This document shows, in pieces, positions 49,024-54,706 of a stretch of DNA of 64,000 nt (the stretch's first letter is position 1; every line of letters starts with the position of its first letter). The position numbers and the translations under genes are program-made. The DNA lies in contig NZ_CP016474.1 of NCBI RefSeq assembly GCF_001693255.1, positions 2,436,661 to 2,500,660 of the forward strand, given 5' to 3'. The notes under the pieces were generated by a model, which worked only from the letters and a program-made list of their open reading frames with translations, had not been told where the DNA came from and made no database searches. The stretch comes from Picosynechococcus sp. PCC 7003 (GTDB taxonomy: Bacteria; Cyanobacteriota; Cyanobacteriia; Cyanobacteriales; MRBY01).

Positions 49024-49097
49024 AGGAAGTAAATGAATTTCTTAATTTCCCCCAAATCTCCTCACTAAAGTTCCGGCAAAATAGTGGATTGTGATCT

Positions 49098-49121
49098 AAA
49101 AAATCTCCCCCAGACCGGGGG
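49098..49121 (-). terminator. Terminator downstream of the sulfotransferase-like gene
   Basis: On the minus strand CCCCC-GGTCT-GGGGG is followed by AGATTTTTT, about 60 bases past the stop at 49183. An adjoining GGCCGGGGGGC could extend or compete with the stem. Confidence 0.65.
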
Positions 49122-49182
49122 CCGGGGGGCTTTATGAATCAGCTATTAGGTTATTTATAGCAGAAGATTATAAAAAATTGAG

Positions 49183-49893
49183 TTAACCAAGCTTCGGATA
49201 ATAATAATGCAACACTGAATCATCTATCCGCTCATTAATCATACTAGCAATGTCATCAGTGATGGGTTCAAGGGGTTTTTGAGGGGCACTAGAATTACTG
49301 GCATCCACTGGGAATTGGAGCCAATGTTGATAAATAAGCTTGTCAATTGTGCGATTTGTTAAGGTCAAATTCCAGCCAACACCACCATGCATATATTGGT
49401 TAAAGATTTCCGGTTTTTCTGGCCGAGGTAACCACTGATATAAATCTTGGAGAACAGCTAATTGATCTTTTTTAAAATCTTCGTATCGAATAACTTTTAC
49501 ATAGGGCACCAGATCGATAAACTTTCGGTAGCTAGCATATTTTTGATTCCACATATCTAAAATACTTGCGTAGTCTTCAATGGGATAGTCTAAGAATCGC
49601 TTGAAGCTATACCGGTGAATGACTGCATCAGAATCACAGTATGGCCAACGGTGCATTGCCGCCGCCCACTCATAGGGATGGCGTACCGTAATAATAAATA
49701 ATGTACGCGCAACTAAGGGCTTATTTTGTAGTTCCTCTGCATTAGGGGCTTTTCGATGTTTCCAGCCAAGGAAATCGTAGTAAGGATAATCTAAATCAAA
49801 GTTTTGTATCAGTAATCTTGCAATCGCATTGGTCGCCGTGTGACGTTCCCCAAAAATTTTAAATTGAATAATTTGATTTTGATATTTATTCAT
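49183..49893 (-). CDS. Sulfotransferase-like protein
   Basis: A 236-residue protein with FKIFGERHTATNAIARLL at the N-terminus, which resembles the 5'-phosphosulfate-binding P-loop-like motif of PAPS-dependent sulfotransferases, and FIITVRHPYEWAAAMHRW, resembling the 3'-phosphate-binding motif. VKVIRYEDFKKDQLAVLQDL is also typical of the fold. It may sulfate a surface glycan or protein. It is downstream of the repeat adhesin on the same strand but separated from it by a strong terminator, so it should have its own promoter in the 200-base gap. Low GC and absence of HIP1 suggest transfer. Confidence 0.65.
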   Translation of the reverse strand: MNKYQNQIIQFKIFGERHTATNAIARLLIQNFDLDYPYYDFLGWKHRKAPNAEELQNKPLVARTLFIITVRHPYEWAAAMHRWPYCDSDAVIHRYSFKRFLDYPIEDYASILDMWNQKYASYRKFIDLVPYVKVIRYEDFKKDQLAVLQDLYQWLPRPEKPEIFNQYMHGGVGWNLTLTNRTIDKLIYQHWLQFPVDASNSSAPQKPLEPITDDIASMINERIDDSVLHYYYPKLG

Positions 49894-49999
49894 TATATTG
49901 GTTGGTACTAATAAGAGCTTTGTTTAGTGGATATACCAAACTACTTTGGCACAATAACGGTCTATGCTTGGTATCAGTATCGATAAGTTATTACTTTAC

Positions 50000-50043
50000 A
50001 AAAAATAAACCCCATACCTAAAGACATAAAGTACGAGGTTTAT
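50000..50043 (-). terminator. Rho-independent terminator of the adhesin gene
   Basis: On the minus strand ATAAACCTCGTAC pairs over 13 bases with GTATGGGGTTTAT (two G-T wobbles) around a 13-base loop, followed by TTTTTTG. It begins 49 bases past the stop at 50092. Confidence 0.85.
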
Positions 50044-50091
50044 CTTGCTTAAAGTAGAGAAAAAACTCTACTAAATCAACAGGATGTGATC

Positions 50092-50988
50092 TTAGAAACT
50101 AATACCAATACCAGCACCTGCTGAGAATGTATCTTCATTCAATCCCCACCCAGCACTACCTTTAAAGGTAACAGCTGTGCCAGTACTGTTTGGATCTGTA
50201 AAGAGGAATTTTGCAGCAGCGCCAAGTGCTGTTTCATCTTGGAATGTACCAAAACCAACACCAATACCAAAGCGGTGACCAGGACGTAGTTCAGGTTCAG
50301 CATTATCCATTGCAATGACGCTCGCTACACCAGCTCTGAGCTCTTTGACATCTTGCTTGAGATCCGCGATATCAGTCGCGTTACTCACGATGTTGGTGGA
50401 GTTGGTCGCGATGTCAGTCGCGTTACTCACGATGTTGGTGGAGTTGGTCGCGATATCAGTCGCGTTACTCACGATGTTGGTGGAGTTGGTCGCGATGTCA
50501 GTCGCGTTACTCACGATATTGGTGGAGTTGGTCGCGATGTCAGTCGCGTTACTCACGATATTGGTGGAGTTGGTCGCGATATCAGTCGCGTTACTCACGA
50601 TATTGGTGGAGTTGGTCGCGATATCAGTCGCGTTACTCACGATGTTGGTGGAGTTGGTCGCGATATCAGTCGCGTTACTCACGATGTTGGTGGAGTTGGT
50701 CGCGATATCAGTCGCGTTACTCACGATGTTGGTGGAGTTGACATTGTTACAACTAACTAAATTATCAACAGCAGTTTGAGTGGAACCTTCAGTTGCCACT
50801 TCTGTAGTAGTGATGTTTAGACCAGTCTGAAACGAGAAAGAAACAGTACTAATCACAGTAACACCGTCAATTGCTTGGGCAGGACAAGCTTGTGCCGCTG
50901 CGCGAGGCGATGCAAAAGACCAACCACTGAGGAGGACGGCAAGTCCAAGGATGTTGTTGAATACGAGACTATAATTTTTGATTTTCAT
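50092..50988 (-). CDS. Small YadA-like trimeric autotransporter/adhesin with nine 14-residue repeats
   Basis: A 298-residue exported protein. A signal peptide ends near AAAQA (about residue 34). Residues 84-209 are nine tandem copies of NSTNIVSNATDIAT, each with two N-x-T sequons (NST, NAT), so 18 in the repeats plus one NIT before them. The period of 14 residues and heptad-like Ile/Val spacing fit a trimeric coiled-coil stalk. DLKQDVKELRAGVASVIAM then leads to a C-terminal region of alternating strands ending in GAGIGISF, like the YadA membrane anchor. It should be an outer-membrane surface protein. Such adhesins are unusual in cyanobacteria. The upstream gene encodes a DUF2827-type glycosyltransferase. 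Confidence 0.8.
   Translation of the reverse strand: MKIKNYSLVFNNILGLAVLLSGWSFASPRAAAQACPAQAIDGVTVISTVSFSFQTGLNITTTEVATEGSTQTAVDNLVSCNNVNSTNIVSNATDIATNSTNIVSNATDIATNSTNIVSNATDIATNSTNIVSNATDIATNSTNIVSNATDIATNSTNIVSNATDIATNSTNIVSNATDIATNSTNIVSNATDIATNSTNIVSNATDIADLKQDVKELRAGVASVIAMDNAEPELRPGHRFGIGVGFGTFQDETALGAAAKFLFTDPNSTGTAVTFKGSAGWGLNEDTFSAGAGIGISF
50365..50740. repeat. Nine-copy 42-bp tandem repeat within the adhesin gene
   Basis: Units of 42 bases (14 codons) vary at only two positions, GATATC/GATGTC and GATGTT/GATATT on the plus strand. Both are synonymous on the coding strand (Asp GAT/GAC; Asn AAC/AAT). The unit length keeps frame, so copy-number change would lengthen or shorten the stalk without a frameshift. 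It is not a CRISPR array: there are no unique spacers. Confidence 0.95.
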
Positions 50989-51017
50989 TGGAGAATTGTT
51001 TCCCTAGTTGTACTGGC

Positions 51018-51132
51018 TAGACTAGTCACTTGTTAATGCCTTGGTTTTACAACCCAAGGTGCTAAATTTTCGAACCACAGAGGATTTTGCATGGATCCTT
51101 GGGTGATCATCTAGATTCCAAGGACTAGTCTA
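51018..51132. repeat. Compound inverted repeat upstream of the adhesin gene
   Basis: TAGACTAGTC at 51018-51027 is repeated inverted at 51123-51132. Between them are two smaller stem-loops with CCTTGG/CCAAGG arms. It lies in the 400-base gap between the adhesin start (50988) and the end of the glycosyltransferase gene (51390), which otherwise shows no gene. It could be an untranslated leader structure, a regulatory site or a decayed small mobile element. Confidence 0.5.
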
Positions 51133-51389
51133 AGTGAGCGCAATTCGGAGGAGACGAAACAAAAGTGTGAACTGATTGCTACCAAAGTATAATTCAAAAC
51201 CTTCCGGAAAACATTAAAATGTTTCTGTATTGATTTATTTGTTTCACCTAGCTTTTTTTTGTGATGCATAAATATATCTTATGTTTTTGTTGGTGTAAAT
51301 CTTATGGCTTTCTGGTGTTGAGCATCATGAATTCAATCTGCTTTCGAAATACACATGAAACACAAACGTATTTTTTGTGCTTACTTAAG

Positions 51390-52550
51390 TTAAGCATTAA
51401 CTAAATTTTGGATAATGTTTCGGTAGCCACGAACATTGTCTGGATTCTTGGTACTGTACCGATACAACGTTTTTTTTGCTTGTTCTTTGTATTCATCCAA
51501 TCTCAGATCATGTTCTGTCAGAGCTTGTCTGAGTGCCTGCGCCCCTTTTTTGACATCAAATTCCGGATAATAGTAGCCACAGTCTTGTAATAAAGGGGAG
51601 TTGTGAACTAGAGGAATATCGTAATACAAAGCATCAAGGTAAAGATAATTTAGTTCACAAAGATGTTGGTGACTGATCACCAGACTGCAGTCAGAATGAA
51701 AGATGTCAATTACTGGATAGCGTTTTTCAGAAGATAAAATCTTTTGGCAACTTAGGTAGCCATAAAAGTGTTTGAAAGCCTGACGTTCAATGATATGGTT
51801 AGAGCAATAAATTCGAGCGTTTTTGCGGCCAAAAATAGATGCATTTTGAGAATATAAAGATTCCACAATTGTTGTTGGAATGACAAAATTTTTTACAAGA
51901 TTAATATTGGGTTCTAATATACCAATATGCTTATTGTTATTCTTTTGGTAACGAGGATTAAAAGTGGGATTGACCGTTGTTCGATCAATCTCTAGTTTCT
52001 GCAAAAACCAAGGTTCATACAGATAAGGGCTAATTGTCACCCGGGATTTGGAGACGGTCTCGACATAGGATTTATGATAAGCATGGTGAGGTGACATCCA
52101 AATCTCATCAACCAGGCCGGGTTCGCGTTTTAGAAGTGCGCCACTAAAACGGTTCTCGATGTTATAAATAACATCCTCCATCAGTCCCCACATGATAATT
52201 CCAGCATGAAATTCAACAATTTTAGTGGAGTACTTTTCTTTGATTTTTTTCATCAAGTCAGGCGCAAGATAAGCCTCTGTCGTGATCAAAACATCATAGA
52301 TTAAGTGATTATCTAAATCTGGGTTGAGGTCTTTTTGTTCGATTAATGGTGTATCTTCCCCAACCTCGGTACGATTTTTTAGAGATTCCTCCAGGACATT
52401 TTCCTCACAAATGACATAGGAAACATCAAACTCTGGAATAGAGCGAAATAACTGCACCAGAAAATAAGTGTTTTGTTCTAGCCCATAATTATATTTGGTA
52501 GCTAGTCCTTTGTACTTAGAAATGATAAATCCAATTTTGATTTTTTTCAT
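51390..52550 (-). CDS. DUF2827-type glycosyltransferase
   Basis: A 386-residue soluble protein with the features of the DUF2827 family known mainly from Burkholderia-type bacteria: GILEPNINLVKNFVIPT in the middle, CELNYLYLDALYYDIPLVHNS with the later GYYYPEFDVKKGAQAL (key pieces EPNINLVKN, LNYLYLDAL, PLVHNS). The layout is that of a GT-B glycosyltransferase with the donor site in the C-terminal half. No signal peptide, so it acts in the cytoplasm. It is transcribed in the same direction as the sequon-rich adhesin 400 bases downstream, which suggests the adhesin as its target. The composition is AT-rich and HIP1-free. Confidence 0.72.
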   Translation of the reverse strand: MKKIKIGFIISKYKGLATKYNYGLEQNTYFLVQLFRSIPEFDVSYVICEENVLEESLKNRTEVGEDTPLIEQKDLNPDLDNHLIYDVLITTEAYLAPDLMKKIKEKYSTKIVEFHAGIIMWGLMEDVIYNIENRFSGALLKREPGLVDEIWMSPHHAYHKSYVETVSKSRVTISPYLYEPWFLQKLEIDRTTVNPTFNPRYQKNNNKHIGILEPNINLVKNFVIPTTIVESLYSQNASIFGRKNARIYCSNHIIERQAFKHFYGYLSCQKILSSEKRYPVIDIFHSDCSLVISHQHLCELNYLYLDALYYDIPLVHNSPLLQDCGYYYPEFDVKKGAQALRQALTEHDLRLDEYKEQAKKTLYRYSTKNPDNVRGYRNIIQNLVNA

Positions 52551-52734
52551 TGCTTACTTATTGATTATTTTGGAGATTTGATCGATTTAATCAATTAAAA
52601 GTATAGAGGATTTCAATGAGGCCATAGTCCTAATGAGGTCATTGCTTTCCTTCTTTATTTTATTTCTTAGTAAAACAAAAAAGGAATCAACATAACTATC
52701 TGTCAATTCCTTACATATTTTTTAAGATGATTAA

Positions 52735-52756
52735 GTGAACCACCCCGCCAGGGGCT
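52735..52756 (-). mobile_element. Isolated IS200/IS605-type right-end hairpin
   Basis: On the minus strand GCCCC-TGG-CGGGGT is followed by GGTTCAC, matching the end motif of the neighbouring copies (GTAGTTCA, GGTCA). No gene or RNA-like body is attached; it is a stub next to the inverted-repeat segment 52757-52865. Confidence 0.5.
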
Positions 52757-52865
52757 ACGCATCTAATTTGCGAAAAGCAGGCTATACAAGCTTTTCAGAG
52801 ATGGTCGTAATTTTCACTAAATTCTCAAACCTTTATCTGGTAAAGGTTTGAGAATTTAGATGCGT
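52757..52865. repeat. 109-bp element with outer 10-bp and inner 19-bp inverted repeats
   Basis: ACGCATCTAA (52757-52766) is inverted at 52856-52865. Inside, a perfect 19-bp inverted repeat (52817-52835 and 52841-52859, beginning CTAAATTCTC) closes on a five-base loop TCTGG and overlaps the outer right arm. It lies between two right-end motifs, as if inserted there or separating two duplicated ends. It has no coding content. Confidence 0.7.
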
Positions 52866-52871
52866 TTACCC

Positions 52872-53120
52872 TGACCACCCCGCCGCAAGTGGACGGAGCT
52901 TCCTGTTTCAATGGGATGCGCTTTTTACCCCTAAAGATAGCAAGTCTTATCATCCCTCACCAGGCAGAAGTCCTAGTTCCTAAGACCCATACTTTTTCTT
53001 GCAACACGTCCCTTTAGCTTGGTTTTCACTTTGGGAGTTGGTGGTCAAGATGATCATATTGTACGCCACAAGCGGCGGGGAATTTACCCTGAGAGATTAA
53101 AGGAAACCTCGAAAAATTTA
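52872..53120 (-). mobile_element. Second IS200/IS605-type right-end / guide-RNA-like remnant
   Basis: On the minus strand it shares blocks with the orphan copy at 32702-33010: GGCGTAC, CATCTTGACCAC, CCCAAAG, AAGAAAAAGTAT, then CAGGAAGC before a terminal GC-rich stem and GGTCA. It has no TnpB frame of its own and sits just beyond the right end of the intact tnpB element. It could be a decayed older element or a trans-acting guide RNA source. Confidence 0.5.
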
Positions 53121-53172
53121 AAATTTCGCTAGATCAGTAACGTATTTTTGTTGTTTCAGGCTTAAAAAATTA

Positions 53173-53202
53173 TGAACTACTCCAGCCTAAGAGGCATGGA
53201 GT
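53173..53202 (-). mobile_element. Right-end hairpin of the tnpB element
   Basis: On the minus strand ACTCCA-T-GCCT-CTT-AGGC-TGGAGT is followed by AGTTCA. The tnpB stop codon lies inside the hairpin, typical of IS200/IS605-type elements whose 3' end doubles as the transposon end and guide-RNA scaffold. Confidence 0.65.
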
Positions 53203-54434
53203 TTCCGTCGTTTCATCACCCCAAGTTGCCTCATGCTTCCGCAATCGGTAGAGCTTGGCGGCTCCGCGACTGAAGAGGCCAGTTCCTGACCCCTTGCCCA
53301 GGCTAAATTAACCTGAGCTGCATTGATATCTCTATCCTCCCTGTGGCCACAGTTTGGGTTTGAGCAAATATGTACCCTGTCTGCCAATGTCTTTGGCGTT
53401 AGCTCCCAACATTTAGCGCAACGCTGAGAGGGCTTAAGCGTCCTTGTCGGGGACTCCACATAAAATCCTCCTGCCTCTGCCAGCTTGTATTCCAGCATTG
53501 AACCAATCATGCCGAAGCCAACCGAGAGAATGGAGCGGTTAAGCCCTGTTTTTTGAGCTTTCCGTTTGCTGCCTTTTTTGGCTTTGCGGGTCATGTTTTT
53601 GACGTTTAACTGCTCACCTGCAACCAGGCTATTACCGCTGACTATGTCGCTTGTGATTTGATGCAGCCAATCTTCGCGCTGACGGGTAATTTTGCGTTGC
53701 CGCATTGATACCTGCCGTCTCGCTTTTTGCCACCGCCGCGATGCTTTAACTCGCTTATTTCGGTTTGGTGCACGCTTTCGTCTGAGTTGCTTGGATGCTT
53801 GCTTAACCTGTTGTTCTCCCTCCTTAATAAAATCTGGCTTGCTGATTTGCTCCCCTGTCGAAAGGGCAATTGCTTCCTTGCAACCTAAATCAATCCCCAC
53901 AGACCCACCCTCGGTTTCCCGCTTGGGTTCACATTTGACGGTGATTGAGGCGTACCACTTACCCTGGCGGAAGAATATCGTGCAGGTTGTTGGCTTTCCC
54001 CAGGTACGGGCCTTGCCCCTCATCTGCAACCTTCCCACATTGCTCAACTTGAGAAAGCCATGGTGACCTCCTGTTTCTACCTTCCAGCCTGCACCACAAG
54101 GATATGTCCACCCCGAATACTTCCGAGATGCCTTGAACTTTGGATATCCCCCCAATCCCTTAAAAAATCGGTTGAAGGCAAAGTCCACTCGCTTTAACGT
54201 TGCCTGTAGGGCATGGGAACCCAGTTCTTTAAATTCTGGCCATACTTGCTTGAACCCTGGCAGACTATTTTGCTGCTCAAAGTAATCGACTGCATGGTTG
54301 AACTTTTGGTACTGGGTTTTACGGTTAGCGATTGCTGCGTTGTACAAACTGCAATGTAAACGCCGCCAATAGTGCAGCTTTTTTTGCTGTTGGCGACTTG
54401 GATAGAGCCTGTAAGTGATTCGGCGTGTTACCAT
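53187..54434 (-). CDS. tnpB: TnpB (IS200/IS605-type RNA-guided nuclease/transposon protein)
   Basis: A 415-residue TnpB (OrfB). The RuvC-like catalytic residues are all present: Asp182 in VGIDLGCKEA, Glu274 in VAGEQLNV and Asp369 in HREDRDINAAQ. The zinc ribbon is intact (Cys339, Cys342, Cys357, Cys362). The N-terminal YRLYPSRQQQKKLHYW is typical. TnpB proteins are guide-RNA-directed DNA nucleases that help retain their element. I start at ATG 54434; a longer frame would run into the divergent small gene. No tnpA lies nearby, so the element is of the tnpB-only (IS1341-like) kind and needs a transposase in trans. Confidence 0.9.
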   Translation of the reverse strand: MVTRRITYRLYPSRQQQKKLHYWRRLHCSLYNAAIANRKTQYQKFNHAVDYFEQQNSLPGFKQVWPEFKELGSHALQATLKRVDFAFNRFFKGLGGYPKFKASRKYSGWTYPCGAGWKVETGGHHGFLKLSNVGRLQMRGKARTWGKPTTCTIFFRQGKWYASITVKCEPKRETEGGSVGIDLGCKEAIALSTGEQISKPDFIKEGEQQVKQASKQLRRKRAPNRNKRVKASRRWQKARRQVSMRQRKITRQREDWLHQITSDIVSGNSLVAGEQLNVKNMTRKAKKGSKRKAQKTGLNRSILSVGFGMIGSMLEYKLAEAGGFYVESPTRTLKPSQRCAKCWELTPKTLADRVHICSNPNCGHREDRDINAAQVNLAWARGQELASSVAEPPSSTDCGSMRQLGVMKRRKLHAS

Positions 54435-54462
54435 ACTCTTATTGTAGTCTATTGTACCCACA

Positions 54463-54600
54463 ATGAACAAGTCAGAAGTACTAAAAATAAGGCTAACATC
54501 AGAGGATCTGGCAAGACTCAAGGCGTTCGCGTCCAACAAGGATGTCAGCATGGCTCAAATTATCAGAGAGTACATAAGGCGATTGCCTAAGCCTGATTGA
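54463..54600 (+). CDS. Small ribbon-helix-helix protein divergent from tnpB
   Basis: A 45-residue frame beginning MNKSEVLKIRLTSEDL, with a middle FASNKDVSMAQIIREYIRR. The beta-strand (VLKIRL), the turn and the two helices match the ribbon-helix-helix (CopG/Arc-like) DNA-binding fold. It starts 28 bases from the divergent tnpB start, so it likely binds the shared promoter and controls tnpB. It is too short for most automatic gene calls. No ribosome-binding site is obvious, which lowers confidence. Confidence 0.7.
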   Translation: MNKSEVLKIRLTSEDLARLKAFASNKDVSMAQIIREYIRRLPKPD

Positions 54601-54706
54601 TTTGGCTACTTCCGTTTCTCTTCAGTAGCTGCGCTATCCTTCCCTACCCTAAAGAGGGATAGGGACTGCCGCGCCCAAGTTCAAAGAAGCAATTAATCGA
54701 GGTTCC

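Follow-up and report, generated by a model that had tools for sequence, protein, structure and literature searches.

The window, that is the whole stretch of 64,000 nucleotides analysed here, comes from a Picosynechococcus genome (G000, C1:2436661-2500660), and the subject of this study is a trio of genes within it that encode a protein of the DUF2827 family, a YadA-type adhesin and a sulfotransferase-like protein. The congeners G001, G002 (PCC 7117), G003, G004 and G005 were compared with it. The trio has the following features.

51390..52550, minus strand: DUF2827 protein, 386 amino acids, predicted GT-B glycosyltransferase (PF10933, E=1.8e-68; AlphaFold2 model; conservation)
50092..50988, minus strand: short trimeric autotransporter adhesin, 298 amino acids (PF03895, E=3.6e-6; match to 2wpr/2wpq)
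50365..50740, minus strand: nine 42-bp tandem units, equal to 18 heptads of I-x-x-N-(A/S)-T-(D/N) (TRF, 9.0 copies, 98% identity)
49183..49893, minus strand: sulfotransferase-like protein, 236 amino acids (Sulfotransfer_3, E=2.9e-4, below cut-off; co-occurrence)

Open reading frames at 51390-52550, 50092-50988 and 49183-49893 bear out the three consecutive minus-strand genes described in an earlier first-pass annotation of this DNA, and its nine 14-residue units with two N-x-T sequons each are found as well. The reading frames lie 401 bp and 198 bp apart, and intergenic gaps of 200-400 bp do not establish a single operon for the trio.

The adhesin is composed of a signal peptide, an N-terminal segment of about 48 residues, an N@d coiled-coil stalk and a YadA anchor at residues 232-298 (PF03895, 27.4 bits, cut-off 22.7, profile 1-60 of 60). 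Its export is predicted from a classical N-terminal signal peptide judged by eye. Within the repeat array, 18 N-x-T sequons are spaced exactly seven residues apart (residues 84-203), and the whole protein has 21 sequons compared to 8.8 +/- 2.6 expected from composition. Each stalk Asn follows an Ile by three residues, giving an IxxN heptad. The best sequence matches of the stalk in the PDB are the trimeric-autotransporter fragments 2wpr/2wpq (E=3e-4 to 6e-4), which we take to be N@d fragments of SadA from Salmonella; 18 heptads and this match together give the protein the coiled-coil stalk by which type Vc adhesins are recognized. The N@d layer is a recurrent core motif of such adhesins, in which the Asn at position d coordinates anions in the trimer centre (PMC4786415). 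In the heptad of the window, Thr occupies the exposed f position and Ser/Thr positions c and e. The PCC 7117 array is shorter (269-residue protein), and stalk length may vary through in-frame gain or loss of 42-bp units. PCC 7117 also encodes a second YadA-anchored protein (L040 8949-10265), whose stalk is collagen-like, GATGATGDTGPTGPQGQQ, in place of the coiled coil. Just upstream of the adhesin start, on the minus strand at 50989-51200, lies a nested inverted repeat, TAGACTAGTC...GACTAGTCTA, around CCTTGG...CCAAGG; the folding energy of this candidate hairpin is not clearly better than that of shuffled sequence (z=-1.4), and Rfam gave no match within 47-56 kb of the window.

The DUF2827 protein matches its family profile over the full length (231.5 bits, cut-off 25, profile 2-361 of 362). 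This is the only Pfam match of the protein, and the GT41 model PF13844 has no match in the window genome. No function has been described for DUF2827: our literature search found it named in one paper alone, on a cysteine/DUF database, and a PDB profile search returned nothing significant. An AlphaFold2 model built on an alignment of the window, IMG/VR and PCC 7117 sequences (pLDDT 85.7, pTM 0.86) found GT-B enzymes as top structural matches in Foldseek/VIA-align, with Z of about 19-23 over 294-344 residues. A GT-B fold with two Rossmann-like domains is predicted with confidence, and the GT-B-like identity proposed in the first-pass annotation is upheld by the model. The matches include 6eji, BshA, TarM (Z 22), MshA, PimA, SdgB (19.8), SPY and TtOGT (19.2). 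The model thus aligns with UDP/GDP-sugar GT-B enzymes, among them SdgB, an O-GlcNAc transferase that modifies adhesins, and two protein O-glycosyltransferases, SPY and TtOGT. Lipid and lipopolysaccharide (LPS) glycosyltransferases (PimA, WaaG) and polysaccharide enzymes are also among the closest folds. Many GT-B families tie, and therefore the match shows the fold and not the substrate.

Conserved residues of the family are E213-P-N-x4-K220, H294, N301, D/E306 and H316-N317. E213, P175, N301, P313, H316 and G325 are invariant in alignment A2 and almost so in alignment A1, and K220 is nearly invariant. By analogy with GT4 enzymes, E213...K220 may correspond to the lysine region that binds phosphate, and H294/N301/D-or-E306 to the sugar site. 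The near-invariance of these residues would fit a working donor site, and conservation suggests nucleotide-sugar transferase activity.

For the third protein, the gene itself stands as the first-pass annotation had it, and the evidence for a sulfotransferase is weak. The Sulfotransfer_3 match, at 21.6 bits, falls short of the cut-off of 27, the best PDB match, 4gbm, has E=0.05, and the predicted model is too low in confidence for use (pLDDT 38). The sequence contains a GERHTATN loop and R71-H-P-x-x-W. Relatives were absent from the phages and viral contigs searched, and the plasmid collection returned partial matches only, from Phaeobacter and relatives.

Of 386 cyanobacterial genomes, exactly three carry DUF2827, all of them Picosynechococcus (the window genome, PCC 7117 and G005), and the sulfotransferase-like family is found in the same three, with one weak partial match elsewhere. 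A scan of genome contigs for DUF2827 returned PCC 7117 as its sole match. In all three carriers DUF2827 adjoins a YadA-type adhesin gene and a sulfotransferase-like gene, at two genomic positions. The G005 set, an adhesin, two DUF2827 genes and a sulfotransferase-like gene, lies on contig 9 while psb27 is on contig 19; it has the gene types of the window trio in another order and at another site. The three carriers do not count as three independent events, because all belong to one genus.

Proteobacteria were surveyed through plasmid and secondary-replicon records only. DUF2827 occurs on 18 replicons of the plasmid collection, 17 from Burkholderia and one from Caballeronia. When DUF2827 positions were set against those of a YadA-anchor search and the loci then read, a giant YadA-anchored adhesin was found within about 5 kb of DUF2827 in 15 of the 18. 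The association of DUF2827 with surface-protein genes, set in advance as the key test of the first-pass proposal, is hence found in both groups. The probability of such proximity by chance is about 0.003-0.08 per replicon. Some of the 15 linked replicons are near-identical plasmids and four probably represent orthologous secondary-chromosome loci; at least five plasmid contexts appear independent, with chance probabilities of 0.03-0.08 each. Usually two to four DUF2827 genes lie downstream of the adhesin on the same strand, and OmpA, TPR or H-NS genes are often found between or near them. Two Burkholderia plasmid loci have, between their DUF2827 genes, a gene for a small protein whose start resembles a signal peptide (L045 13134-13769 and L050 17273-17926). 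The two proteins are related, and that of L045 has no Pfam match.

DUF2827 genes are also present in phage DNA. A profile scan of IMG/VR gave 23 contigs with one to three DUF2827 genes each; scanning viral contigs with one sequence gave no hit. Isolated phages (INPHARED), searched with two phage-type queries as well as the window protein, gave no DUF2827 match, and therefore phage DUF2827 is known here from IMG/VR contigs alone. On several contigs (L055, L059, L065) the gene adjoins long coiled-coil proteins, with collagen-like proteins matching tail-fibre PHROGs close by, and on L058 it lies beside GT25-GT8-GT34 proteins. On L064 (9953-14461) the gene for a Sulfotransfer_4-GT34 fusion protein comes after two DUF2827 genes, which mirrors the pairing of DUF2827 with a sulfotransferase-like gene in the window. 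A repetitive protein occurs within two genes of DUF2827 in only 10 of 18 non-redundant phage loci. Genes adjoining phage DUF2827 have a higher Ser+Thr fraction (0.172 vs 0.140 elsewhere, p=0.0015). In a midpoint-rooted FastTree phylogeny, the Picosynechococcus proteins fall among the phage ones (support 0.79-0.91), which fits a gain through phage-like DNA and is not proof of it.

The surroundings of the trio are in line with mobile origin. Two further features belong here.

49024..54706, no strand assigned: island bounded by a response-regulator gene and psb27 (composition, HIP1 gap, comparison with congeners)
53187-54551: TnpB gene, IS200/IS605-type RNA-guided endonuclease (NCBIfam NF040570, E=2.4e-77)

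The AT-rich, HIP1-free character of the interval noted earlier is confirmed: GC content per kb is 36-46% in the trio interval and about 50% in the flanks, and none of the 107 HIP1 sites of the window lies between 48752 and 55083, a gap of 6.3 kb (P=0.002 under uniform site placement). The trio fills only part of this gap, which also includes the TnpB gene. In G001 the response-regulator gene and psb27 are separated by 93 bp; the set was therefore either inserted in the window genome or lost in G001. In PCC 7117 the trio sits between the same two flanking genes as in the window and lacks the TnpB gene, which rules out TnpB as a cassette member and places its element outside the set. A palindrome near 52815-52860, CTAAATTCTCAAACCTTTA...TAAAGGTTTGAGAATTTAG, may mark the end of the TnpB element. 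The interval has the look of an island acquired by horizontal transfer.

An island of this kind also invites two readings in which enzyme and adhesin are not functionally coupled. The trio might be a chance neighbourhood in AT-rich DNA, in line with the varying gene order among carriers, the gaps of 200-400 bp and the TnpB element next door. The presence of all three gene types at another site in G005, the perfect co-occurrence of DUF2827 and the sulfotransferase-like gene across 386 genomes and the linkage of DUF2827 to adhesins across phyla make this very improbable. Alternatively, the target of DUF2827 might be LPS, a glycolipid or a surface polysaccharide, which it would make or alter, with adhesin genes nearby simply because variable cell-surface islands hold both. 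Both the island character of the interval and the presence of PimA, WaaG and polysaccharide enzymes among the closest folds would suit this idea. However, the cassette has no other polysaccharide genes, DUF2827 is paired with an adhesin gene in two bacterial phyla, at separate genomic sites and on different plasmids, and the phage genes are embedded in tail-fibre regions, yet phage glycosyltransferases can also alter host LPS. We consider a role in polysaccharide or lipid modification unlikely, though worth keeping in view.

If the adhesin is the substrate, the acceptor residue has to be considered. The evenly spaced sequons, more numerous than composition predicts, would suit an enzyme that acts like HMW1C/NGT and glucosylates the stalk N-x-T Asn before folding. 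There is precedent in Kingella, where the enzyme that N-glycosylates the trimeric autotransporter Knh is homologous to HMW1C (PMC9592894), and the window genome has no GT41 protein, so that another enzyme would be needed. Yet the Asn of these sequons occupies the N@d position in the core of the trimeric coiled coil (PMC4786415), where a sugar would be expected to block trimer packing, and is thus probably not an acceptor. The sequons also do not follow DUF2827. The Asn three residues after I/L/V lies inside a sequon in 17 of 20 cases in the window, and in PCC 7117, a DUF2827 carrier, in only 6 of 16; its repeats have NAN for NAT, so that one of two sequons per unit is lost while the Asn is kept. 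Among adhesins of congeners with no intact DUF2827, the counts are 5/15 and 4/21 in G003 and 227/259 in G004, the latter having the most sequons of the compared Picosynechococcus adhesins. In Burkholderia, the linked L050 adhesin has 27 sequons against 167 expected from composition, and the other linked adhesins have about the expected number or fewer, none lying more than two standard deviations above expectation. We therefore regard N-linked modification as distinctly improbable. The first-pass proposal of an adhesin-modifying glycosyltransferase is supported in its GT-B fold and its linkage, whereas the N-x-T sequons as acceptor are not borne out.

Congeners with no intact DUF2827 have candidate modifying enzymes near such fibres as well. 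In G004, DUF2827 is reduced to a 42-residue remnant (C1:2032746). Its YadA-type adhesin (L038 4970-10899) has about 1,900 codons and roughly 230 NSS-type sequons in three overlapping frames, reflecting true frameshifts or assembly errors, and the second gene downstream encodes a methyltransferase. G003 has no DUF2827; close downstream of its adhesin fragment come a small exported protein and then a 2427-residue protein (L036 6591-13877) with TPR, GT9, GT4 and FkbM-methyltransferase matches. These neighbours are suggestive of a habit of pairing such fibres with modifying enzymes.

Ser and Thr are the better candidates. Linked Burkholderia adhesins are rich in both, with up to 49% and a mean Ser+Thr fraction of 0.40 compared to 0.28 in unlinked related adhesins (12 linked, 7 unlinked; p=0.036). 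The stalks include BCAM2418-type SLST repeats; the authors who described this type suggested O-glycosylation and named no enzyme (PMC7142374). We lean towards a dedicated fibre-modification unit, in which DUF2827 glycosylates the trimeric fibre, probably O-linked on Ser/Thr. The DUF2827 protein would act as a cytoplasmic GT-B glycosyltransferase that uses a nucleotide-activated sugar to modify the stalk of the adjoining autotransporter before export. The likeliest acceptors would be the solvent-facing Ser/Thr at heptad positions c, e and f, while the sequon Asn at core d would hold the trimer together rather than accept sugar. Speculatively, the sulfotransferase-like protein may decorate the glycan further, and the unit may have been gained horizontally as a whole.

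Several observations weigh against such a unit. Fold similarity leaves donor, acceptor and activity unfixed. The Ser/Thr contrast rests on just the adhesins counted above, and three unlinked Ser/Thr-rich adhesins come from genomes with DUF2827 on another replicon. Repetitive proteins are not clearly enriched near phage DUF2827 (11/67 vs 14/170 elsewhere, p=0.10). Caballeronia M1242 has two DUF2827 genes and no adhesin within 18 kb, and two B. glumae plasmids (L051 and a relative) have decayed, truncated DUF2827 copies only, those of L051 sitting among insertion sequences. More broadly, and only tentatively, DUF2827 may be an uncharacterised glycosyltransferase family devoted to trimeric coiled-coil or collagen-like fibres, namely YadA-type adhesins of two phyla and tail fibres of uncultivated phages, with the sulfotransferase as an occasional partner.

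The linkage gives DUF2827 a concrete candidate substrate class, Ser/Thr-rich trimeric fibres. If true, fibre modification by DUF2827 would explain how giant BCAM2418-type Burkholderia adhesins, suspected of O-glycosylation with no known enzyme, are modified, and a dedicated system for modifying adhesins would be available in a tractable cyanobacterial genus, Picosynechococcus. A note of caution follows for annotation, because regular N-x-S/T motifs in YadA-type stalks can be N@d core layers and not glycosylation sites.

Parts of the proposed unit resemble known systems. Similar to HMW1C/NGT acting on Kingella Knh, DUF2827 would be a dedicated cytoplasmic GT-B-type enzyme working on a trimeric autotransporter before export; unlike it, DUF2827 matches no GT41 model, and an Asn acceptor is unsupported by the sequons. 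SdgA and SdgB, which modify staphylococcal serine-aspartate repeat adhesins (PMC8561734), are likewise GT-B enzymes devoted to a long Ser-rich repeat stalk, and SdgB is close in fold to the DUF2827 model. However, the sequences are unrelated at the level tested, and SdgA/SdgB substrates are Gram-positive wall proteins, not trimeric autotransporters. The BCAM2418-type adhesins of B. cenocepacia share the SLST signature and high Ser/Thr content with the giant DUF2827-linked adhesins (PMC7142374). In contrast, the Picosynechococcus adhesin is tiny, has N@d heptads, and no YadA head was found in it. The closest likeness of its stalk is to the N@d stalk of Salmonella SadA (2wpr and 2wpq, as assumed above). 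Both have IxxN heptads with Asn at core d (PMC4786415), but in the window adhesin 18 near-identical heptads make up essentially the whole stalk.

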